Both the position numbers and the translations under genes were made by a program. Below, one piece after another: positions 2 to 48,599 of a DNA stretch of 64,000 nucleotides (position 1 is its first letter; every line of letters starts with the position of its first letter). The notes under the pieces are model-generated. The model searched no databases and was not told the DNA's origin. It worked only from the letters and a program-made list of their open reading frames with translations. The stretch spans positions 3,501,501 to 3,565,500 of the forward strand of contig NZ_CP150661.1 in NCBI RefSeq assembly GCF_038024105.1, in the 5' to 3' direction. Origin of the DNA: Polaribacter butkevichii. GTDB taxonomy: Bacteria > Bacteroidota > Bacteroidia > Flavobacteriales > Flavobacteriaceae.

Positions 2-1528
2 GTAAGAGCGCATCCGATAGGTAAAATTGCAGAGCGTACTATTGGGTATGATGATTTTAGAGGAGAAGCAGGTATAGAAGGTGCTTTTGCTGATTATATG
101 CAAGGTGAAAATGGGTTGAGATGGAAGCAGAAAATTGCTAAAAATCAATGGAAACCTATAAATGATGTTAATGAAAAAGAACCTATAGATGGTCATGATA
201 TTATTACGACTATAGATGTTAATATTCAGGATATAACGCATCATGCGTTGTTAGATAACTTAGCATATTTTGAGGCAGAACATGGTTGTGCAGTGGTTAT
301 GGAAACGGCAACAGGAGAAATTAAAGCAATTTCTAATTTAGGAAGAACGTCTAAAGGAACCTATTACGAAAAAAGAAATTATGCGGTTTGGGAGAGTCAT
401 GAGCCAGGTTCTACTTTTAAGTTGGCAAGTTTAATGGTGGCTTTAGATGATAAAGTTATCGATACTTCTACAGTGGTAGATACGGAGAAAGGTAGAATTT
501 ATGTTAATAATAGAAAGGTAGAGGATTCTCATAGAGGAGGTTACGGTAAGATTTCTGCGGCAAGGGTTTTGGAGGTTTCGTCGAATGTTGGAGTGGTAAA
601 GATTATAAAAAAGTTTTATGATAAAAACCCAGAGAAATATTATAATAAAATAGCTGAATATGGTTTTACAAAGCCTATTGGTTTTCAAATAAAAGGAGAA
701 GGGAAGCCTTATGTTCCGAATCCTAAAGATAAGGAATGGAGTAAAATTTCTTTAGAGTGGATGGCTTGGGGTTATGGGGTTTCTGTTACGCCAATGCAAA
801 CATTAATGTTTTACAATGCGGTTGCAAATAATGGGGTTATGGTAAAACCAAGGTTTGTTAAAGAATTAAGAAGAGAGGATAAAACAGAGAAACTTTTTGA
901 AACAGAGATTGTAAATCCTAAAATAGCTTCAGATGAAACTTTAGCGAAGTTGAAAAAAGTGTTAGAAAACGTTGTAACTAAAGGTACGGCACGTAATATT
1001 TATTCTCCTAACTTTTCTATGGCAGGTAAAACAGGGACGGCAAAAAAGTACATTCCAAAGCATGTAGATGAGAAAGGTAAAACAGTATTTGGACATTATT
1101 CTACCAAGCATTATGTAGCGTCGTTTGCGGGTTTTTTTCCTGCGGATAAACCAAAATATTCTTGCATTGTGGTAATTCATGATCCAAAGAAAGAGAAAGG
1201 GTATTATGGTGCAACTGTTGCGGGGCCTGTGTTTAAAGAGATTGCACAAAAAATTTATACAACTACACCTATAGATAATCAGTCTGTAGATGATAAAATA
1301 GAATTTGCGTCGATTGAAAAGCAGTATTTAAGTTTTGATAAAAAATTAAATAAAGAATATCATGAAATTCCGGATGTTAGAGGGATGTCTGGTATGGATG
1401 CTTTGGCGTTGTTAGAAAATATTGGATTAAAAGTGCAGGTTTCTGGAGCGGGAAAAGTGAAGTCTCAATCACTACGAAAAGGAGAGAAGTTAATAAAAGG
1501 ACAAACAATTATTTTAAAACTTTCATAA
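2..1528 (+). CDS. ftsI: Penicillin-binding protein, FtsI/SpoVD type (5' end outside window)
   Basis: Class B penicillin-binding transpeptidase that cross-links septal peptidoglycan, membrane-anchored and acting in the periplasm. The reading frame is open from the first bases, so the N-terminal membrane helix and part of the dimerisation domain lie upstream; 508 codons are visible. The active-site STFK motif is at bases 410-421 (catalytic Ser), followed by an SSN motif and the KTGT motif from base 1028. The last ~60 residues resemble a PASTA domain (EIPDVRGMSGMDAL...), as in SpoVD-type proteins. It heads the visible dcw cluster, and murE follows within a base or two. The family is certain; the name FtsI rather than SpoVD is conventional for Bacteroidota. 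Confidence 0.93.
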   Translation, partial: VRAHPIGKIAERTIGYDDFRGEAGIEGAFADYMQGENGLRWKQKIAKNQWKPINDVNEKEPIDGHDIITTIDVNIQDITHHALLDNLAYFEAEHGCAVVMETATGEIKAISNLGRTSKGTYYEKRNYAVWESHEPGSTFKLASLMVALDDKVIDTSTVVDTEKGRIYVNNRKVEDSHRGGYGKISAARVLEVSSNVGVVKIIKKFYDKNPEKYYNKIAEYGFTKPIGFQIKGEGKPYVPNPKDKEWSKISLEWMAWGYGVSVTPMQTLMFYNAVANNGVMVKPRFVKELRREDKTEKLFETEIVNPKIASDETLAKLKKVLENVVTKGTARNIYSPNFSMAGKTGTAKKYIPKHVDEKGKTVFGHYSTKHYVASFAGFFPADKPKYSCIVVIHDPKKEKGYYGATVAGPVFKEIAQKIYTTTPIDNQSVDDKIEFASIEKQYLSFDKKLNKEYHEIPDVRGMSGMDALALLENIGLKVQVSGAGKVKSQSLRKGEKLIKGQTIILKLS

Positions 1529-1529
1529 G

Positions 1530-2996
1530 CTGAAAAATTTAAAAGACATATTATATCAGGTTGCTATTCATCAAGTATTTGGACTTACAGATATTAAGGT
1601 GAATTCTATTGTTTTTGATTCTAGAAAGATTGAAAAGAATGCTGTTTTTGTTGCTCAAAAAGGAGTTTCAGTAGATGGGCATTTATATATAGATAAAGCA
1701 ATTTCTTTAGGAGCAATCGCAATTATTTGCGAAGATTTTCCTGCGGATAAAAAAGAAGGAATTACTTATGTTCAGGTGACGGATGCAAATGTAGCATTGG
1801 CTATTATGGCGTCTAATTTTTATAACAATCCATCAAAAAAACTTCCTTTAGTGGGAGTTACGGGTACTAATGGTAAAACAACAATAGCATCACTTTTATA
1901 TCAATTATTTAAAAAAGCGGGTTATAAAGTTGGTTTACTTTCTACTGTTAAAATTTTGGTTGATGAAACGGAGTTTAAGGCAACGCATACAACACCAGAT
2001 TCTGTAACTATCAATAGTTATTTGGATAAAATGATTGAAGCTGGAGTAGATTACTGTTTTATGGAAGTGAGTTCTCATGGAATTCATCAAAAAAGAACAG
2101 AAGGATTAACTTTTGCAGGTGGAATTTTTACCAACTTATCGCACGATCATTTAGATTATCACAACACGTTTGCAGAGTATAGAGATGTAAAAAAATCATT
2201 TTTCGATTCATTGCCAAAATCAGCTTTTGCGTTGACAAATATTGATGATAAAAATGGCGACTTTATGTTGCAAAACACCAAGGCTAAAAAGAAAACATAC
2301 GCGTTAAAAACAATAGCAGATTATAAAGCGAAGATTTTAGAAAAACAATTTTCTGGTACACTTTTAAAGTTAAATGACACGGAGGTTTGGACAAAGTTAA
2401 TTGGTCAGTTTAATGCTTCTAATTTATTGGCAATTTATGCTACGGCAGAATTATTAGGTTTAGAAAAGTTAGAAATTTTAACAATAATAAGTCAGTTAGA
2501 AAATGTAAGCGGACGTTTTGAATATGTGGTTTCTGGTGATGGAGTTACAGCAATTGTAGATTATGCGCATACGCCAGATGCTTTAAAAAATGTGTTAGAA
2601 ACCATTAATGATATTAGAACTGGTAACGAAAAAGTAATTACAGTTGTAGGTTGTGGTGGTGATAGAGATAAAACAAAAAGACCTAAAATGGCGCACATTG
2701 CTTCGCAATTAAGTAATCAAGCAATTTTTACGTCAGACAATCCAAGAACAGAAAATGCGCAAACTATTTTAGATGAAATGGAAGTTGGTGTTGCTGCAGA
2801 AAATTATAAAAAAACATTGTCAATTTTAGATAGAAGACAAGCCATAAAAACAGCTTGTAAGTTTTCTGAAAATGGAGATATCATATTAATTGCCGGAAAA
2901 GGGCATGAAAATTATCAAGAAATAAACGGAGTTAGAACTCATTTTGATGATTTAGAGGAGGTAAGAAATTGTTTCAATCAATTAAAAAATAATTAA
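1530..2996 (+). CDS. murE: UDP-MurNAc-L-Ala-D-Glu:meso-DAP ligase MurE, probable CTG start
   Basis: Cytoplasmic ATP-dependent ligase adding the third stem-peptide residue to UDP-MurNAc-dipeptide. The ATP-binding GTNGKTT loop is at about residues 112-118. The DNPR motif at 403-406 is the signature of meso-diaminopimelate specificity. The start needs comment: the first ATG/GTG/TTG in frame is GTG at 1599, but the 23 codons before it ([20 protein letters not shown]) look like the conserved N-terminus of flavobacterial MurE. The only start-like codon that includes them is CTG at 1530, two bases after the ftsI stop; an in-frame stop lies at 1515-1517. With CTG the protein is 488 residues, normal for the family. 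Using 1599 would lose the first beta-strand region. Confidence 0.9.
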
Positions 2997-2998
2997 GA

Positions 2999-4225
2999 AT
3001 GCTGTATTATTTATTTCAATATTTAGAAAGTGTAATGGATTTTCCTGGTGCAGGATTGTTCCATTTTATCACATTTAGAGCTGCAGCAGCTTTTATTTTA
3101 TCCTTGTTAATTTCTACCATTTATGGTAAGCGAATTATAGATTTTTTAAGAAATCAACAAGTTGGTGAAACAGTAAGAGATTTAGGTTTAGATGGTCAAA
3201 AACAAAAAACAGGAACGCCTACAATGGGTGGTGTTATTATCATTTTAGCAACATTAATTCCGGTTTTATTGTTAGCCAAATTAGATAATATCTATGTCAT
3301 TATTTTAATCATCACCACAGTTTGGATGGGGTTAATTGGTTTTTTAGATGATTATATAAAAGTTTTTAAGAAAGATAAAGGAGGTTTAAGTGGTAAGTTT
3401 AAAGTTTTAGGTCAGATTGGTTTAGGTCTTATTGTGGGGTCTATGCTTTATTTTAACGATGGAGTTACTATTAAAGAACAATTGCCAAAAGACCAACAAA
3501 TAGTAAATAAGGAAGGAAGAAAAATTGTTTTTGGAGAAGCTCATAAATCAACAAAAACAACAGTTCCTTTTTTAAAGGATAACGAATTAGATTACTCTAA
3601 AGCATTCAGTTTTTTAGGGGATGGTTATGAAAAATACGGTTGGATTATTTTTATTTTTATTACTGTTTTTATTGTAACAGGGGTTTCTAATGGAGCAAAT
3701 TTAACAGATGGAATAGATGGTTTGGCCGCTGGTTCTTCTGCTATTATTGTAATAACGTTAGCTGTTTTTGCGTGGGTTTCTGGTAATATCATTTTTGCAG
3801 ATTATTTAGACATTATGTTTATACCAAATTCGGGAGAAATGACAGTTTTTATATTGGCTTTTGCTGGGGCTTTAATTGGTTTTCTTTGGTATAATACATA
3901 TCCTGCTCAAGTTTTTATGGGAGATACAGGAAGTTTAACTATCGGTGGAATTATAGCTGTTATTGCTATTGCAATTCGAAAAGAATTATTACTGCCAATT
4001 TTAGCTGGAATATTTGTAGTAGAAAACCTATCTGTAATTATGCAAGTTTCTTGGTTTAAGTATACTAGAAAAAAATACGGAGAAGGAAGAAGGATTTTTA
4101 AAATGTCTCCGTTGCATCATCATTATCAAAAATTAAGTTATCACGAAAGTAAAATTGTAGTCCGTTTTTGGATTGTTGGAATTTTACTGGCAGTATTTAC
4201 AATTGTAACCTTAAAATTAAGATAA
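2999..4225 (+). CDS. mraY: Phospho-MurNAc-pentapeptide transferase MraY
   Basis: Integral membrane enzyme that transfers phospho-MurNAc-pentapeptide from UDP to undecaprenyl phosphate, giving lipid I. The 408-residue protein has about ten hydrophobic segments, the FLDDYIKV aspartate motif, an NLTDGIDGL motif, a GDTGSL motif and the C-terminal SPLHHHYQ histidine motif. It is longer than the ~360-residue proteobacterial enzyme because of an extra hydrophilic stretch of about 45 residues near residues 155-205 (with INVK-like and [11 protein letters not shown] segments); such an insertion is usual in Bacteroidota MraY. It lies 2 bp after murE and is directly abutted by murD, consistent with one transcript. 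Confidence 0.96.
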
Positions 4226-5560
4226 ATGAAACGATTGGTAGTTCTTGGTGGAGGAGAAAGTGGTGTTGGTGCAGCGCTTTTAGGAAAACAAAAAGGCTAT
4301 GAAGTCTTTGTGTCTGACAAGGGTGCTATATCAAAAAAATATAAAGAAGTTCTTTTAAATAATAAGATTGATTTTGAGGAAAAGCAACATACAGAAAGCA
4401 AAATTTTAAATGCAGATGTAGTTGTAAAAAGTCCTGGAATTCCGGATACCGTTGCGTTGATTGTAAAGTTGAAAGAAAATTTGATTCCTGTTATTTCAGA
4501 AATTGAATTTGCAGCAAAATATACCAGTGCAAATATTATAAGTATTACGGGGTCTAACGGTAAAACAACCACCACATTATTATTGCATCATATTTTAAAA
4601 AATGCAGGTTTAGATGTTGGTATTGCAGGGAATATTGGGGATAGTTTTGCGCAACAAGTAGCAGAACAATCGTATGAAAATTATGTGTTAGAGTTAAGTA
4701 GTTTTCAATTAGATGGTATTGAAGACTTTAATAGTCATATTGCCATTTTAACCAATATTACACCAGATCATTTAGATAGATATGAGTACGATTTTAATAA
4801 ATATGTAGCCTCAAAATTTAGAATAACAAAGAATCAAAAAGAAACCGATTATTTAATTTTTGATGCTGATGATGAAGCAATCAATAATTGGTTAAAAGAG
4901 AATAAAACAAGCGCAAAATTAGTTCCGTTTTCGCTTGAAAAAGAATTAGAGTACGGAGCTTATGTCAAAGACAATAATATGATTATCAATATAAATAAAG
5001 AAAAAATTAACATGCCGTTATCAACTTTATCAGTAAAAGGAAAACACAATACTAAAAACGCAATGGCGGCAACAATGGCTGCACAATTGTTAAAAGTAAG
5101 AAGACAAGCAATTAAAGAAAGCTTAGAAGATTTTGAAGGTGTAGAGCATCGTTTAGAAAATGTTGCAAAAGTTAAAGGGGTAGCATTTATAAATGATTCT
5201 AAGGCAACCAATGTAAATGCAACTTATTATGCCTTAGAATGCATGGATAAAACAACTATTTGGATTGTTGGTGGTGTAGATAAAGGAAATGATTATAATG
5301 ATTTATTGCCTTTGGTTAGAGAAAAGGTAAAAGCAATTGTGTGTTTAGGTCTTGATAATGAGAAAATAAAAAACACTTTTGAAAACGTTGTTGATATTAT
5401 TGTAGAAACTGCCGGGGCAGAAGAAGCTGTAAAAGTTTCTCAGAAATTAGCAGAAAGAGGAGAAGCTGTTTTGTTATCTCCATGTTGTGCAAGTTTTGAT
5501 TTATTTGAAAATTATGAAGACAGAGGGCGTCAATTTAAAAACGCTGTAAGAAGTCTTTAA
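4226..5560 (+). CDS. murD: UDP-MurNAc-L-alanine:D-glutamate ligase MurD
   Basis: Cytoplasmic ligase adding D-glutamate to UDP-MurNAc-L-Ala. The 444-residue protein starts with a Rossmann-like glycine-rich stretch (VVLGGGESGVG, residues 5-15). The ATP-binding GSNGKTTT loop is at 109-116, followed by the conserved ITPDHLDRY and HRLE(N) motifs and the NDSKATN motif near residue 327. The start ATG immediately follows the mraY TAA stop with no gap, so translation is probably coupled. An 88-bp spacer with two hairpins separates it from ftsW, the longest gap within the cluster. Confidence 0.97.
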   Translation: MKRLVVLGGGESGVGAALLGKQKGYEVFVSDKGAISKKYKEVLLNNKIDFEEKQHTESKILNADVVVKSPGIPDTVALIVKLKENLIPVISEIEFAAKYTSANIISITGSNGKTTTTLLLHHILKNAGLDVGIAGNIGDSFAQQVAEQSYENYVLELSSFQLDGIEDFNSHIAILTNITPDHLDRYEYDFNKYVASKFRITKNQKETDYLIFDADDEAINNWLKENKTSAKLVPFSLEKELEYGAYVKDNNMIININKEKINMPLSTLSVKGKHNTKNAMAATMAAQLLKVRRQAIKESLEDFEGVEHRLENVAKVKGVAFINDSKATNVNATYYALECMDKTTIWIVGGVDKGNDYNDLLPLVREKVKAIVCLGLDNEKIKNTFENVVDIIVETAGAEEAVKVSQKLAERGEAVLLSPCCASFDLFENYEDRGRQFKNAVRSL

Positions 5561-28703: not shown

Positions 28704-30026
28704 ATGAATGTTGCTGTAATTGGGTCAGGTTATGTTGGTTTAGTTTCTGGTACTTGTTTCGCAGAAATGGGGAATAAAGTGACCTGTGTAGATATAGATC
28801 AAAAGAAAATTCAAAAATTAGAAGAAGGAATTATTCCTATTTTTGAACCAGGTTTAGAACAAATGGTTTTAAAGAATGTAAAAAATAAAAATTTATTTTT
28901 TACAACCAATTTAGGAAATGCTATTAGTGATGCAGAAATTGTTTTTATTGCTGTTGGTACACCAATGGGTGATGATGGTTCTGCAGATTTACAATATGTT
29001 TTAGCCGTAGCAAAGTCTATTGGAGAAACAATGAATAAAAGATTAATAGTTGTTGATAAATCTACTGTACCTATTGGTACTGCAGATAAGGTAAAAGCAA
29101 CCATTCAAGCAGAACTAGATAAAAGGAATGAAAATATAGAGTTTAGTGTAGTTTCAAATCCTGAGTTCTTAAAAGAAGGAGCTGCTATCGGCGATTTTAT
29201 GAAGCCTGATAGAGTAGTAGTAGGTGCTGACTCAGAATATGCAGTTTCTAAAATGAAAGAATTATACCATCCTTTTTGTATGTCTCATGATCGTTTTATA
29301 AGTATGGATATTCGTTCTGCGGAAATGACAAAATATGCAGCAAACACCATGTTGGCTACAAAAATTTCATTTATGAATGAGATTGCTAATATTTGTGAAA
29401 GGGTAGGTGCAGATGCTAATATGGTTAGAATAGGTATTGGTTCTGATAAAAGAATTGGATATAGTTTTATTTACCCAGGTGCAGGTTACGGAGGGTCTTG
29501 TTTTCCTAAAGATGTAAAAGCTTTAAAGAAAATTGCAGAAGAAAACGGGTATAAAGCAAACTTAATAGAATCCGTAGAGAATGTAAATGATGCTCAGAAA
29601 TTAGTAATTGCTAACAAGATTGTAAAACGTTTTGGAGAAGATTTATCAGGAATGACTTTTGGTTTATGGGGATTGGCTTTTAAACCGGGTACCGATGACA
29701 TGAGAGAAGCTCCAGCAATTTATATTGTAAAAGAATTAGAAAAAAGAGGAGCAAAAGTAAAAGCTTATGATCCTAAAGCAATTGAGGAGTCAAAAGAATT
29801 TTACTTAAAGGATGCTAAAAATATAACATACTGTACTTCTAAGTACGAAGTTTTACAAAATGCAGATGCCTTAATTTTATTAACGGAATGGAAAGAGTTT
29901 AGATCTCCGGATTTTGTAGAAATTAAGCAACAACTAAAGACTCCTATTATTTTTGATGGTAGAAATCAATACAATGCCTTTAATTTAGAAGAAAAAGGAT
30001 TTGAGTATTTTCAAATAGGGAAATAA
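28704..30026 (+). CDS. ugd: UDP-glucose 6-dehydrogenase
   Basis: Oxidises UDP-glucose to UDP-glucuronate with two NAD, 440 residues. The Rossmann loop GSGYVGLVSGTCFA starts at residue 7, and the catalytic cysteine is in the GAGYGGSCFPKDVKAL motif near residue 263. The FGLWGLAFKPGTDDMREAP hinge motif follows near 320. It begins a run of plus-strand sugar-nucleotide genes. The UDP-glucuronate 4-epimerase encoded at 32804 can use its product to give UDP-GalA. Confidence 0.95.
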   Translation: MNVAVIGSGYVGLVSGTCFAEMGNKVTCVDIDQKKIQKLEEGIIPIFEPGLEQMVLKNVKNKNLFFTTNLGNAISDAEIVFIAVGTPMGDDGSADLQYVLAVAKSIGETMNKRLIVVDKSTVPIGTADKVKATIQAELDKRNENIEFSVVSNPEFLKEGAAIGDFMKPDRVVVGADSEYAVSKMKELYHPFCMSHDRFISMDIRSAEMTKYAANTMLATKISFMNEIANICERVGADANMVRIGIGSDKRIGYSFIYPGAGYGGSCFPKDVKALKKIAEENGYKANLIESVENVNDAQKLVIANKIVKRFGEDLSGMTFGLWGLAFKPGTDDMREAPAIYIVKELEKRGAKVKAYDPKAIEESKEFYLKDAKNITYCTSKYEVLQNADALILLTEWKEFRSPDFVEIKQQLKTPIIFDGRNQYNAFNLEEKGFEYFQIGK

Positions 30027-30033
30027 AAAAAAG

Positions 30034-30984
30034 ATGAAAAAAGACACTAAAATTTATATTGCAGGTCATAGAGGCATGGTAGGTTCTGCAGTATGGAGAA
30101 CTTTAGAGAAAAAAGGATATACAAATCTAATAGGGAAAACGAGTAAAGAGCTTGACTTAAAAGATCAGGTGGCGGTACTTCATTTCTATCAAAAAGAAAA
30201 ACCGGCAGTTGTTATAGATGCTGCTGCAAAAGTGGGTGGTATTTTAGCCAATAATAATTTCCCATATCAGTTTTTGATGGAAAACATGCAAATTCAAAAT
30301 AATCTAATAGATAGTGCCTTAAAATCTGGGATTGAAAAATTTATATTTTTAGGAAGCTCTTGTATCTATCCAAAATTTGCTCCTCAGCCATTAAAAGAAG
30401 AGTATTTACTAACAGATTCTTTAGAGCCTACAAATGAATGGTATGCTCTTGCAAAAATTACAGGAGTAAAAGCATGTCAGGCGATTAGAAATCAGTTTCA
30501 AAAAGATTATGTAAGTTTAATGCCTACAAATCTGTATGGTACACATGATAATTTTGATTTAAAATCTTCTCATGTATTGCCTGCAATGATTCGTAAATTT
30601 CACGAGGCAAAAAACAATAATAATTCAGACGTAATGTTGTGGGGAAGTGGAACTCCAATGCGTGAATTCTTATATGTAGATGATATGGCAGAGGCAGTGG
30701 TGTATGCCTTAGAAAATAAATTACCAGAGTATTTATATAACATAGGTACTGGAGAAGATTTGACGATTAAAGAATTGGCAGAAACCATTCAACAAGTTGT
30801 TGGGCATGAAGGAAAATTAGTTTGGGATAGCTCTAAACCAGATGGAACACCAAGAAAATTAATGGATATTTCTAAAATGCACAACTTAGGTTGGAAGCAT
30901 AAAGTTGATTTAAAGCAAGGGATTGAAAAAACCTACACTTGGTTTTTAGAAAATATAGAAAATTTTAAAGAAGTTAAATTGTAA
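30034..30984 (+). CDS. fcl: GDP-L-fucose synthase
   Basis: Epimerase-reductase that converts GDP-4-keto-6-deoxy-mannose to GDP-L-fucose, 316 residues. Motifs are the NADP loop AGHRGMVGSAVWR at residues 10-22, the GSSCIYPKFAPQP serine block near 108-120, and the catalytic YALAK near 136-140. It works after GDP-mannose dehydratase (gmd), which usually lies beside it. Here the two are separated by ~620 bp holding a four-helix-bundle gene and two heptamer arrays. Confidence 0.95.
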   Translation: MKKDTKIYIAGHRGMVGSAVWRTLEKKGYTNLIGKTSKELDLKDQVAVLHFYQKEKPAVVIDAAAKVGGILANNNFPYQFLMENMQIQNNLIDSALKSGIEKFIFLGSSCIYPKFAPQPLKEEYLLTDSLEPTNEWYALAKITGVKACQAIRNQFQKDYVSLMPTNLYGTHDNFDLKSSHVLPAMIRKFHEAKNNNNSDVMLWGSGTPMREFLYVDDMAEAVVYALENKLPEYLYNIGTGEDLTIKELAETIQQVVGHEGKLVWDSSKPDGTPRKLMDISKMHNLGWKHKVDLKQGIEKTYTWFLENIENFKEVKL

Positions 30985-30988
30985 AAGT

Positions 30989-31086
30989 CGTTATTCGTCT
31001 TTCGTTTATCGTTAATCGTCCATCGTTAACCGTCGATCGTCCAACGAGAATCGAACAACGTTCAACGAAAACCGAGCAACGAAAAA
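30989..31086. repeat. Left heptamer array: CG every 7 bp, 14 times
   Basis: Fourteen CG dinucleotides recur at exactly 7-bp steps from 30989 to 31080. The five bases after each CG vary. The first eight units are of CGT type (CGTTATT, CGTCTTT, CGTCCAT, CGTTAAC), and later units are mostly of CGA type (CGAACAA, CGAAAAC), so the two halves are partly complementary and could fold back. The array begins 4 bp after the fcl stop and ends just before the small gene at 31092. Such regular CG spacing stands out strongly in this AT-rich DNA. Confidence 0.95.
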
Positions 31087-31091
31087 AAAAT

Positions 31092-31436
31092 ATGGAATGT
31101 AAACTAGAGGTTTGGAAATTGGCACATCAATTAACTCTTGATGTATACGAAGTTTCAAAAAACTTTCCTTCTTCAGAAAAATTTGGGTTAACCAATCAAG
31201 TAAGAAGAAGTTCTAGTAGTGTTCCAACAAATATAATAGAAGGGCAAGGGAGGCAATATAAAAAGGAATTTATTCAGTTTTTATATATTGCTAAAGGCTC
31301 TTTGGAAGAAGCAAATTATCAATTGTTTTTGGCAAAAGATTTAGAGTATATTTCTAATGAACAATATATGAAATTATTTGATCTTTGTACGAGAATTAAA
31401 ATGATGTTATATAAATTAATAAGTTCTTTAAAGTAG
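31092..31436 (+). CDS. Four-helix-bundle protein (S23/IVS family)
   Basis: Small protein of 114 residues, predicted all-alpha, of the family found as 'S23' in 23S rRNA intervening sequences and related to the Avd accessory protein of diversity-generating retroelements. Family features are the [19 protein letters not shown] start, the [19 protein letters not shown] motif near residues 33-51 and the [19 protein letters not shown] helix. Function in stand-alone settings is unknown. It is exactly bracketed by two CG-heptamer arrays and interrupts the usual fcl-gmd pairing, which suggests that arrays and gene moved or evolve as one unit. No reverse transcriptase or rRNA is nearby. Confidence 0.85.
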
Positions 31437-31448
31437 TTTTTGGTCTTT

Positions 31449-31595
31449 CGTTAACCGTCCATCGTCCAACGAAAATCGAACAACGAAAATCGTCCATCGT
31501 CCATCGAACAACGAACAACGAAAACCGAACAACGAACAACGAACAACGAAAACCGAACAACGAACAACGAACAACGAAAATCGAACAACGAACAA
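31449..31595. repeat. Right heptamer array: CG every 7 bp, 21 times
   Basis: Twenty-one CG dinucleotides are spaced exactly 7 bp apart from 31449 to 31589. The left third mixes CGT-type (CGTTAAC, CGTCCAT, CGTCCAA) and CGA-type units. The right two thirds are almost only CGAACAA with CGAAAAC or CGAAAAT every third or fourth unit, giving a second-order period. The array starts 13 bp after the small gene and ends about 5 bp before the gmd ATG, so it forms the gmd leader. Confidence 0.95.
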
Positions 31596-31600
31596 AAATC

Positions 31601-32731
31601 ATGAATAAAGTAGCATTAATTACAGGGATTACCGGTCAAGACGGCTCATACTTAGCTGAGTTATTATTAGAAAAAGGATATATCGTACACGGTATTAAAA
31701 GAAGATCATCTCTTTTTAATACAGATAGAATAGATCATTTATATCAAGACCCACACGACCCGGATCAAAGATTAAAATTGCATTATGGAGACTTAACGGA
31801 CTCTATGAATTTGACACGTATTATACAAGAATGTCAACCTGATGAAATTTATAATTTAGGAGCAATGTCTCACGTAGCGGTTTCTTTTGATACGCCAGAA
31901 TATGTAGGTAATGTAGATGGATTAGGAACTTTAAGAATCTTAGAAGCAGTAAGAATTTTAGGTTTAGAAAAGAAAACAAGAATTTATCAAGCTTCTACTT
32001 CAGAGTTATACGGTGGAATGCCAGAAAATAAAAATGAAAGAGGCTTTTATGACGAATCTTCTCCATTTTACCCTCGTTCTCCTTATGGAGTAGCAAAAAT
32101 TTACGGTTTTTGGATTACAAAAAATTATCGTGAAGCTTATGATATGTTTGCTTGTAATGGTATTTTGTTTAATCATGAATCTCCAAGAAGAGGAGAAACG
32201 TTTGTAACAAGAAAAATTACACGTGCCGTAGCTAAAATAGCTTTAGGATTACAAGAAAAAGTGTTTTTAGGTAATTTAGAGGCAAAACGTGATTGGGGGC
32301 ATGCAAAAGATTATGTTCGTATGATGTGGATGATCTTACAAGCAGATAAACCAGAAGACTGGGTAATTGCTACTGGTGTTACTACAACTGTAAGAGACTT
32401 TGTACGTTTGGCTTTTAGTGAAGTTGGGATAGAAGTAGAATTTAAAGGAGAAGGTGTTGATGAAAAAGCGTACGTTATAGCATGTAATCATAAAGATTTT
32501 CAAATAGAAATAGGTAAAGAAGTCTTATCTGTAGACCCTTCTTACTTCCGTCCAACAGAAGTAGATTTGTTAATTGGAGATCCTTCTAAAGCTAAGAATG
32601 AATTAGGATGGGTGCCAGAGCATGATTTGGCTTCTTTGGTAAAAGATATGATGAAAGGTGATGTTTCTTTAATGAAAAAAGATGTTGTTTTATTAAAAGC
32701 AGGTCATGAAATTTTAAAACAGGCTGAGTAA
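31601..32731 (+). CDS. gmd: GDP-mannose 4,6-dehydratase
   Basis: First enzyme of GDP-L-fucose synthesis, making GDP-4-keto-6-deoxy-D-mannose, 376 residues. Visible motifs are the NADP loop [14 protein letters not shown] at 9-22, [11 protein letters not shown] near 126-136, the catalytic YGVAK near 160, and [15 protein letters not shown] near 192-206. Its ATG lies at the edge of the right heptamer array, so the sequence just upstream holds no recognisable promoter. Its product is used by GDP-fucose synthase encoded on the other side of the arrays. Confidence 0.96.
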
Positions 32732-46205: not shown

Positions 46206-48599
46206 ATGCAGATACATAAAGAAAACACTAATTTTAAGGGTGGTGAAGAGTCAGACACTATTAATATTAGAGAAGAGTTAGAAAAATATCTTTTTCATTG
46301 GAAATGGTTTGTGTTAGGTGCTATTATTGCACTTTTTGTAGCCTTTATGTTTTTAAGATACGCTACACCTCAATATAATGCAGTTACTTCTATCATGATA
46401 AAAGACAATCAAAAGTCTGGTATATCAAAAGAACTAGAAGCCTTTAAAGATATGGGGATTGTAGGAGGTGGTTCTTCTAATAATACGGATAATGAAATAG
46501 AAATATTAAAATCTCGAAAAATTATAGGTGCGGTTGTAGATACTTTAAATTTAACGACTACTTATTTTACAAAAGGGAGAATAAAGAGAACAGAGGTTTA
46601 TAGGAATAACCCAATTCAGATACTCTTTAATAAAAATAATGAATCTTTAATAAATCAAATAAAAGATACTTCTTTTACGGTAAATGTTTTATCAGAAAAT
46701 AAATTTGAATTGAAAGATATTGAAGATAATGTCATTTCAACGCACCATTTTGGTGAAATTATTATTTCTGATATAGGTAATTTTAAAGTAGAGAAAACTA
46801 AAGTATTTGAATTTAAAGAAGAAGAAATTTATATTAATATTTTAAAAAGGACAGAAGTTATAGATGCTTATAAAAAAGGTGTTAGTATTAATTCTGTAAA
46901 TAAAAATTCTAGTGTTTTAACACTTTCTTTTAAACATCCAATTAAAGAAAAAGCCGAAGATTTTTTAAATGAGTTGGTAACACAATACAATTTAGATGCT
47001 ATTAAGGATAAAAGTGAAGTTTCTCAAAAAACCAAAAGCTTTATTGATGAAAGGTTATTTGCAATTGGTAAGGACTTGAACTCTATACAAGATCGAGTTA
47101 AAAAATTTAAAACGGATAATAATATTACTGGGCTATCTACTGAAGGAGAATTGGCTTTAAACACTGCATCAAAAAATAATCAGGAATTAATTCAAATTAA
47201 AACAGAATTAACTATTGCTGAGAGTGTTTTAGATAATATCAACAAACAATCTAATAAGGATGAAACTTTACCTCAGAATCTAGGTTTTTCAGAAGAGGCT
47301 ATTTCTCAGTCTATTAAAAACTATAATGAATTGGTGGTTTTTAAAAATAGATTGAGTGTAAATGCGGGCTCTAAAAATCCTCAGTTAATCCAATATCAAA
47401 AAGAAATTAATTCTTTAAAATTTAATTTAAAGAATAGTATTTCAAATTTAATTAGTTCTTTAAAAACGCAGTATGAACAAATTAAGAATGAAGCTAATAA
47501 AATAAATTCTAAAGTGTCAGCGATCCCTTCTTTAGAAAGAGGTTATATAGATATAGAAAGAGAGCAAGAAATAATTTCTGGTTTGTATTCTTATCTATTA
47601 AAGAAAAAAGAGGAAACTGCAATTTCATTAGCTGTAACTGTTCCAAACGCGAAAATTATAGATGTTGCATACAGCGATGGTATCCCTGTTTCACCAAAAA
47701 GAAAAATAATATTTTTAGCAGCTCTATTAATGGGGGTGTTAATTCCATTTATAATTATTTATGTTAAAAATTTATTAGATACAAAAATTCATACTAGAAA
47801 AGATATAGAAGAATTAACAACTGTTCCTTTTTTAGGAGATGTACCTCATTCTGAATCGAATGAAAAAATTGTTATTGGAAACGATGCTAGAACAAGTACA
47901 GCAGAAGCTTTTCGTTTGATAAGAACCAATTTAGATTTTATGTTGTCCAATAATAAAGATAGTGATTTAGGGAAGACAATATTTATAACTTCTACAACAA
48001 GTGGAGAGGGAAAATCATTCATTTCTATCAATCTTGCGGCAGCACTCTCTTTATCTAATAAAAAGGTTTTACTTGTTGGAATGGACCTTAGAGCTCCTAA
48101 AGTTACAGAGTACCTGGGGATTCCAGAACGAAAAGGAGTTACTAATTTTATTACGAATGATTCTCTGTCTTTAGACGATGTTAAATTTTCTATTCCAGAA
48201 ATTAAAGGATTAGATATTATTGCTTCTGGAGTTATACCTCCTAATCCTGCGGAGTTGCTTCTAACAGGTAAAATTAAAGACTTATTTGACGAAGTAAAAA
48301 AAGATTATGATTATATTATTGTAGATACGGCTCCTGTAAATTTAGTTACGGATACTCTTTTAGTTTCTAAGTATGCAGATATGTTTTTATATGTATCAAG
48401 AGCAAATTATTTAGATAAGCGTATGCTGAATATAGTTCAAACATTATACAACGAAAAGAAATTACCAAATATGGCTATCGTTTTAAATGATACAGATATG
48501 ACTAGAGGCTATGGTTATGGCTATGGTTATGGCTATGGTTACGGAAATGGATATGTTGAGGATGTTAAGAAACCTTGGTATAAAAGAATTTTAAGTTAA
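46206..48599 (+). CDS. wzc: Wzc-type polysaccharide co-polymerase and tyrosine kinase
   Basis: Inner-membrane protein of 797 residues controlling chain length and export. It has two membrane helices (about 35-53 and 500-520) flanking a coiled-coil-rich periplasmic domain. The C-terminal bacterial tyrosine kinase has Walker A TSGEGKS near 598-604, Walker A' LLVGMDLRAPK and Walker B YIIVDTAP. The tail is a run of GY repeats (residues ~768-781) ending GNGYVEDV, the target of autophosphorylation. The DNA behind it is a 12-bp tandem repeat. The matching phosphatase gene lies convergently downstream, beyond a shared terminator. Confidence 0.95.
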   Translation: MQIHKENTNFKGGEESDTINIREELEKYLFHWKWFVLGAIIALFVAFMFLRYATPQYNAVTSIMIKDNQKSGISKELEAFKDMGIVGGGSSNNTDNEIEILKSRKIIGAVVDTLNLTTTYFTKGRIKRTEVYRNNPIQILFNKNNESLINQIKDTSFTVNVLSENKFELKDIEDNVISTHHFGEIIISDIGNFKVEKTKVFEFKEEEIYINILKRTEVIDAYKKGVSINSVNKNSSVLTLSFKHPIKEKAEDFLNELVTQYNLDAIKDKSEVSQKTKSFIDERLFAIGKDLNSIQDRVKKFKTDNNITGLSTEGELALNTASKNNQELIQIKTELTIAESVLDNINKQSNKDETLPQNLGFSEEAISQSIKNYNELVVFKNRLSVNAGSKNPQLIQYQKEINSLKFNLKNSISNLISSLKTQYEQIKNEANKINSKVSAIPSLERGYIDIEREQEIISGLYSYLLKKKEETAISLAVTVPNAKIIDVAYSDGIPVSPKRKIIFLAALLMGVLIPFIIIYVKNLLDTKIHTRKDIEELTTVPFLGDVPHSESNEKIVIGNDARTSTAEAFRLIRTNLDFMLSNNKDSDLGKTIFITSTTSGEGKSFISINLAAALSLSNKKVLLVGMDLRAPKVTEYLGIPERKGVTNFITNDSLSLDDVKFSIPEIKGLDIIASGVIPPNPAELLLTGKIKDLFDEVKKDYDYIIVDTAPVNLVTDTLLVSKYADMFLYVSRANYLDKRMLNIVQTLYNEKKLPNMAIVLNDTDMTRGYGYGYGYGYGYGNGYVEDVKKPWYKRILS
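48507..48542 (+). repeat. 12-bp tandem repeat coding for the Wzc tyrosine tail
   Basis: Three units of GGCTATGGTTAT (the third ends TAC) encode alternating Gly-Tyr. Because the unit is a multiple of three, loss or gain would change the number of tyrosines in pairs without breaking the frame. Confidence 0.9.

Follow-up and report, generated by a model that had tools for sequence, protein, structure and literature searches.

S23 genes mostly lie between arrays of evenly spaced short repeats at bacterial gene junctions, in an arrangement like that of the 23S rRNA intervening sequence

S23 genes, which encode the 23S rRNA-intervening-sequence protein, mostly lie among arrays of short words repeated at a fixed step; such arrays also occur alone, and arrays and S23 genes co-vary between genomes of the same genus. 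The step is a general feature of S23 loci, and a fixed CG is a trait of the S23 subfamily described here, a member of which lies between fcl and gmd in a window of 64,000 nucleotides (the whole stretch of DNA that was analysed) from Polaribacter butkevichii. We give an even chance to the reading that the insert in the window is like an intervening sequence (IVS) placed in mRNA, with arrays that form an RNA stem and an Avd-related protein of a pentamer family. The locus is composed as follows.

30034..30984, + strand: fcl, GDP-L-fucose synthase, upstream host gene; Pfam Epimerase over the cut-off
30989..31086, no strand: left array of 14 heptads with fixed CG; the first half is of CGT type and the second mostly of CGA type, and the halves are reverse-complementary
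31092..31436, + strand: S23 / 23S rRNA-intervening-sequence protein, four-helix bundle, 114 aa; PF05635, TIGR02436
31449..31595, no strand: right array of 21 heptads with fixed CG, mostly CGAACAA
31601..32731, + strand: gmd, GDP-mannose 4,6-dehydratase, downstream host gene; TIGR01472 at 557.5 bits (cut-off 415)

An earlier note on this DNA had described CG at exact 7-bp steps, and this was confirmed: CG recurs 14 times over 30989-31081 and 21 times over 31449-31590 with no slip, and in 200 first-order Markov shuffles of the window the longest CG run never exceeded 3. No further CG runs of at least 4 were found in the 64-kb window at steps of 3 to 13, and step 14 returned only the same two arrays. 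The two classes of filling that the note had distinguished are also real; when rotated, the CGT class is for the most part the reverse complement of the CGA class. The assignment of the enclosed gene to S23 and of its neighbours to fcl and gmd was borne out by the family profiles, with the NCBIfam GDPFucSynFcl score of fcl (473 bits) falling under the cut-off of 500. The arrays had been said to flank the gene exactly; they do bracket it, but are not strictly contiguous with it, the left one lying 5 bp from S23 and 4 bp from fcl and the right one 12 bp from S23 and 5 bp from gmd. Elsewhere in the window (48507-48555) there is a tandem GGCTAT/GGTTAT repeat of 6/12 bp, possibly a Gly-Tyr-rich coding stretch.

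The S23 protein of the window scores above the curated family cut-offs and has the four-helix bundle fold of the family, and its named close matches are from Polaribacter. The whole genome (4.08 Mb) contains 12 matches to PF05635. Unlike Avd of the diversity-generating retroelements, the protein lies below the Avd family cut-offs (bAvd, 30 bits against 40; DivGenRetAVD, 32.6 against 80) and by these is not an Avd. The S23 protein is under purifying selection, with dN/dS of 0.05-0.11 in eight of eight pairs; L010/L243 and L010/L245 (frame) and L003/L227 (unequal length, 0.21) were left out, and L007/L241 gave 0.74 on very few changes.

The subfamily of the window protein (E <= 1e-30) is present in 16 of the 146 genomes from the same genus and in 4 of the 397 from the family, our genome being counted in both. 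Among its 19 loci, one of which (L212) was unplaced and two of which (L210 and L212) are at contig ends, runs of at least 4 CG at 7-bp steps (CG-7) occur on both sides of the gene in 13 and on one side in 3. L210 has CG-7 runs on both sides as read by eye, and L216 (52% identity) has none. The upstream array of L210 (1-640) is expanded to a higher-order repeat of about 87 bp with runs of 9 CG-heptads. Eight of the junctions are fcl|gmd, and the others include ugd|fcl, ugd|manA-like, ugd|glmS-like, tagD-like|ugd and a few more; nearly all of the hosts, named by sequence likeness, look like polysaccharide genes. At fcl|gmd the left run varies from 4 to 32 units. Because CG-7 arrays recur at different junctions of this subfamily, the array word travels with the S23 gene within it.

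The fixed CG at a conserved step, as the earlier note described it, is thus in part general: the step recurs among S23 loci, and the CG is confined to the window subfamily. CG was dropped as the key feature, since CG-7 runs of at least 3 occur at one of the 12 S23 loci of the genome and other words take its place elsewhere at the same step. By eye, these words are GC at 7 bp in L002 (groES-S23-groEL), GAC/GTC in L004, CAGT/ACTG in L007, AATT in L008, GATAACT in L010 and AGTGAAA/TTTTCAC in L011, and L003 has a period of 8/16. In the 80 flanks of 40 loci (our 12 and 28 from relatives, the latter a part of all matches there) the best period was 7 in 33, 14 in 12, 8 in 11 and 16 in 2. Minus-strand loci were left unturned in this reading and this count, which affects only the up and down labels.

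We then have a diverse set, the best 80 of 570 confirmed S23 loci in named genomes, which carry 17 NCBI phylum labels, with two rows unlabelled. The best period in its 160 flanks was 7 in 54%, 14 in 11%, 8 in 14%, 16 in 6% and 9 in 8%, whereas in 1815 control segments of the same 80 loci it was 7 in 9% and 14 in 5%. Periods of 7 or 14 bp together were therefore best in 65% of diverse flanks compared with 14% of controls, the remaining flanks mostly having 8 or 9, and the association of S23 genes with step arrays beyond chance, for which the earlier note had proposed a search, was found. Flanks of ParE toxin genes reached z7>=4.5 in none of 60 cases, compared with 30% of 140 S23 flanks. Within the genome, arrays of 7 or 14 bp were present in 6 of 165 random intergenic gaps and 14 of 24 S23 flanks, whereas the control periods 5, 10, 11 and 13 gave 14 of 165 gaps and 1 of 24 flanks. 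At least one flank had an array at the 95th percentile of the controls in 143 of 173 loci (8/12 in our genome, 22/28, 25/30, 71/80 and 17/23 in the other sets). The 99th percentile was reached on at least one side in just 40 of 173 loci, which counts against the IVS-like reading, although the control itself contains arrays.

The two arrays of a locus are related to each other. Among the 100 loci with two confident calls, drawn from the 173 examined, both flanks agree in step in 92 (72 at 7, 17 at 8 and 3 at 9). In 61 of the 80 diverse loci the upstream and downstream arrays are more alike as inverted than as direct repeats, and in 71 of 80 the RNA duplex predicted between the two flanks exceeds in strength the average duplex formed with other loci (mean -50 versus -33 kcal/mol). 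A loose motif, GTNA, is found in 40 of 91 upstream words versus 5 of 91 on the other strand (91 of 120 loci having arrays strong enough on both sides). The median is 4.7 units per array on each side, and the medians of the distance to the matched S23 core are about 30-38 bp. Of 120 S23 genes, 91 run in the same direction as both neighbours, 3 run against both and 11 are mixed, with no call in 15. Antisense S23 genes between two genes of the same orientation were seen at L381 2477-2845 and L379 2483-2863, the hosts being ribonucleotide reductase subunit genes (Nostoc edaphicum) and two secretion genes (Calothrix).

The earlier note knew of no described mechanism, which is not quite right, in that the 23S rRNA IVS, where inverted repeats enclose an S23 ORF and RNase III does the cutting, comes close as a precedent. 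The IVSs of Leptospira, Coxiella and others share with the window insert the protein family and the placement of the ORF between stem-forming inverted repeats. In the window, the left array alone forms an imperfect predicted hairpin (z -2.62, equally good in 4 of 200 shuffles), and in the predicted fold of 30985-31599 its pairing partner is the end of the right array (z -2.57, 20 shuffles), so that the S23 ORF is enclosed by inverted repeats with predicted stem potential. Window-type inserts are unlike the IVS in lying in protein operons, in their longer arrays, in that the arrays are also found without S23, and in that excision is a prediction. Because the insert lies between fcl and gmd rather than in a 23S rRNA gene, and no Rfam match was found in 29900-32700 up to E 1, it is IVS-like and not a 23S IVS.

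One of our loci is an S23 gene within 23S rRNA. L386, from Azospirillum lipoferum 4B, has S23 within the 23S rRNA gene (LSU model at 1274-4472 of the locus), and the inverted heptads that flank S23 on either side are predicted to form a long stem with each other. A blastn search with the Azospirillum LSU placed 1 of 184 loci in 23S rRNA, this being L386 itself, and among 20 of the 80 diverse loci searched with Rfam at the gathering threshold there was one tRNA only. The Coxiella IVS is described in PMC4990558 as having two or three tandem heptamers ahead of the S23 ORF, with the 5' cut of RNase III falling where the first of these repeats begins. On the basis of one sequence (Azospirillum) and one published case (Coxiella), inserts in operons and IVSs in rRNA so share one plan.

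Among plasmid records, 41 match the window S23, and by name at least 27 of them are cyanobacterial; L386 is one of ten loci fetched from this group. Nine of the ten were cyanobacterial (two of them near-copies) and one was from Azospirillum; step-7 or step-8 arrays are present on both sides in nine and on one side in L379, a count that has no matched control. In cyanobacterial plasmids S23 is also seen in CRISPR gene clusters (L380 2486-2845, L387 2477-2845 and L385 2477-2833), where it is located at cas6|cas4 of type I-D (twice) and at cas10|cmr3 of type III-B. Among IMG/VR contigs the close-relative search gave one relative, L087, and among phages there was one weak record. By eye, L087 carries inverted AGC-7 arrays, and what seem to be additional S23 fragments flank the match on either side.

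The preferred reading, in which the insert is IVS-like, could operate as follows. The window locus would be one of a widespread class, an S23 gene between two often inverted step arrays in mostly co-directional gene junctions, which would work like a 23S rRNA IVS moved into messenger RNA. After transcription the arrays would pair with each other or fold on themselves to give an interrupted stem; the host RNase III may then cut this stem, freeing the S23 segment and allowing fcl and gmd to be expressed apart. The S23 protein, of a pentamer family with an Avd-like fold, may bind the evenly spaced repeats and serve the spread or upkeep of the element, and internal loss of S23 would leave solo arrays. 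Several observations count against the IVS-like reading. Taken alone and read on the gene strand, the right array has a predicted fold no better than that of shuffled sequences (z 0.35), and the paired stem is broken at intervals of a few bases, which sets it apart from a perfect substrate of RNase III. The excess of inverted likeness is non-significant nearer home (8/12 in our genome, p 0.75; 18/28 in order-level relatives, p 0.11), and four of the 12 S23 genes of the genome are under the 95th percentile of controls on both sides. The two antisense cyanobacterial S23 genes and the arrays without S23 also count against it, as does the view taken in the Coxiella study (PMC4990558) that in that organism the S23 protein is unlikely to be produced in vivo.

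The occupancy of gene junctions differs between relatives. For gmd, 16 of 30 fetched loci were read, and in 8 of these gmd does not adjoin fcl. At the other eight, our genome and L181 carry a window-type S23 with CG-7 arrays in the fcl-gmd junction, L169 (Gmd 93% identical) carries a broken S23 of another kind among other words, at L171 there is a solo palindromic array without S23, and L170, L172, L176 and L177 have tight empty junctions, the empty site in relatives that the earlier note had proposed to look for. The comparison of L004 and L010, for which 30 of 40 S23 places in four relatives were fetched, gave a similar picture: at the L004 site in G448 the flanks are 97/92% identical and S23 matches at just 67% over 167 nt, and in G527 the flanks are 90/91% identical and S23 is without a match, as is also the case for L010 in G527. 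The groES-groEL junctions of eight relatives contain, by eye, inverted GC-7 arrays without S23 in four, CAGT-7 arrays in three and neither in one. At the L009 site, one of seven matching relatives has a broken S23 and six have none. Downstream of the gene at this site, in L256-L261, there is a recurring intergenic element (..TAGAAGCTATTTCCTGCTTT..GGGCTAA..) in several same-genus genomes, some copies differing by a base, with an inverted repeat, ACCTCACAGGTTTTTAAAACCTGTGAGGT, beside it in some genomes. Similar junctions recur at the distant loci L113 and L127: a Desulfobulbaceae MAG carries S23 between genes resembling gmd and fcl, and a Gastranaerophilales MAG carries it between genes resembling groES and groEL (assigned by eye from the sequence).

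The proposal in the earlier note that array, gene and array form a single unit stands insofar as other junctions show the arrangement again, with words of one kind within the subfamily. Arrays also occur alone, however, which the note had named as a refuting result, and as a strict claim the proposal is refuted by the S23-free arrays at the L171 fcl-gmd junction, at groES-groEL in seven of eight relatives and in the GTTATCA-type arrays of our genome, of which, among the matches listed, 7 of 8 places are more than 22 kb from any S23. No target-site duplication was seen at fcl-gmd, where the fcl end, located in 3 of 8 loci, differs between filled and empty sites, and no donor-recipient pair was seen; movement of the element is therefore inferred from the site turnover, and a part of S23 in it would be a further step. 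A tree of the 80 diverse loci had 27 label changes versus a shuffled mean of 29.7 (0 of 200 shuffles as low). It was not used as proof of horizontal transfer, because few branches are resolved and the loci were picked by likeness.

This turnover could also be the work of an element similar to RAYT/REPIN, in which the arrays are terminal inverted repeats at the DNA level that are moved as ssDNA or cDNA, with S23 as a helper and the solo arrays as non-autonomous copies. A gene bracketed by inverted repeats, gene-free arrays scattered in the genome and a relation between array content and gene number make up the RAYT/REPIN layout as given in PMC3116915, and the fold kinship of S23 with Avd, a component of a reverse-transcriptase complex, is in keeping with it. 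At our loci the flanking inverted repeats do occur gene-free elsewhere, with inversion clear in the 80 diverse loci and non-significant in our own 12. RAYT, however, is a tyrosine transposase, whereas S23 is a four-helix bundle without known enzymatic activity; no Y1 transposase lies between the repeats of the window locus, and the window protein matches no Pfam transposase family (PF05635 and the sub-cut-off bAvd only) and has no nameable catalytic domain. The S23 repeats also differ in being step arrays with element-specific words, and the fcl-gmd site lacks a visible target duplication. We regard this explanation as unlikely.

Array content and S23 content are related beyond the S23 loci. 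In random samples of intergenic DNA, three S23-rich genomes (59.8, 20.4 and 25.6 kb sampled) had 4, 3 and 6 distinct 7/14-bp arrays, none of them at an S23 place, and four S23-poor genomes (26.9, 35.9, 25.0 and 35.8 kb) had 0, 0, 0 and 1, at a threshold of 20/28 lag matches. The genomes are separated at thresholds of 20 and 22 and not at 18, where the S23-free G003 gave 12 segment counts at period 7/14, counts at 7 and 14 partly counting one array twice. At threshold 20, period 8/16 gave 6, 6 and 0 in the S23-rich and 2, 2, 0 and 0 in the S23-poor genomes, and the control periods 5, 10, 11, 13 and 17 gave 7, 0 and 2 and 4, 7, 2 and 1, respectively. Across the 146 same-genus genomes the number of GTTATCA arrays correlates with that of S23 genes (Spearman 0.51, kinship ignored); both counts rise with genome size, after which the partial correlation is 0.42-0.43, and a reversed control pattern gave 0.33. 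At a completeness of at least 90%, a GTTATCA array is present in 2 of 18 genomes without S23, 6 of 18 with one, 16 of 26 with 2-4, 23 of 27 with 5-8 and 18 of 23 with at least 9, a rise that is non-monotone at the top (85% and then 78%). In all 146 genomes, 3 of the 32 without S23 have the array.

These numbers bear on the explanation that S23 is a passenger, the heptad arrays being simple sequence repeats (SSRs) made by slippage in gene junctions and S23 merely landing or surviving there. Heptameric SSRs have the same unit length and are likewise intergenic and tandem; they include TAACTGA in Beggiatoaceae and Bacteroidetes, of which the GTTATCA arrays of our genome are the reverse complement, GGGAATC in Xanthomonas and the cyanobacterial heptanucleotides. 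Heptameric repeats are over-represented in many bacteria and an origin by slippage has been proposed, as cited in PMC4692102 and PMC4679880; arrays without S23 do exist, and a single whole-unit 7-bp deletion separates L007 and L241. Slippage alone, however, yields neither one step on both sides (92/100) nor inverted words (61/80), the GTTATCA array is found in 2 of 18 genomes without S23 compared with 18 of 23 with at least nine, and the ParE flanks are devoid of such arrays (0/60), so that we consider this explanation quite improbable. Inverted pairs of repeat sites are reported for Xanthomonas in PMC4692102, and a word search of the main texts of PMC4692102 and PMC4679880 gave no mention of S23, helix-bundle or intervening-sequence genes. 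Unlike the known heptameric SSRs, the arrays described here include steps of 8 and 9 and are linked to a gene family.

The step goes with S23 kinship at close range. On an S23 tree (stops set to X in proteins with at most two) the steps are clustered, with 20 changes versus a shuffled mean of 37.1 (0 of 200 shuffles as low). The diverse loci require 8 changes versus 12.7 (1 of 300 as low), and the set thinned below 60% identity 11 versus 12.9 (26 of 300 as low), a weak signal. Pairs of S23 proteins with at least 60% identity have the same step in 89-97% of cases. Because the clustering is weak in the thinned set, we keep S23 as a reader of the step as a possibility. TRAP regulates mRNAs via spaced triplets. 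That an S23 ring similarly binds one repeat per subunit and regulates array-bearing mRNAs, including its own, would suit the fixed step with variable filler, the median of 4.7 units on both sides, the close-range kinship of the step and the five chains present in each of the structures 2gsc and 2rld (a toroidal pentamer is described for 2gsc, as cited in PMC4990558), but it is very doubtful, given that of two reverse-complement arrays in one transcript only one is readable as RNA, that the step does not clearly track deep S23 kinship, and that unit counts reach 40, the low mode perhaps stemming from the detection method.

To return to the IVS-like reading, the old rRNA "intervening sequence" appears to be one instance of a broader family of inserts at gene junctions. 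Apart from the Coxiella heptamers, no work that links S23 genes with step arrays came up in the literature search, whose scope took in neither bioRxiv nor most of the subscription journals. A wider proposal can be made tentatively, that S23 and the step arrays constitute a mobile class spanning phyla, in which a ring of Avd fold reads the spacing of the repeats and not their sequence, and S23 makes, homogenises or spreads the arrays in cis and in trans; the heptamers of Bacteroidetes, cyanobacteria, Xanthomonas and Beggiatoaceae and the rRNA IVS would then be products of one system. The link between S23 genes and step arrays joins three things that have been treated separately: the 23S IVS with its S23 ORF, the unexplained excess of tandem 7-bp repeats between bacterial genes, and the many "four helix bundle protein" genes without an annotated function. 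If right, it would give S23 a testable job and supply a reason for a repeat unit of 7 (or 8 or 9), and it would mean that a common class of inserts alters mRNA structure between genes such as groES and groEL, fcl and gmd, and the cas genes.
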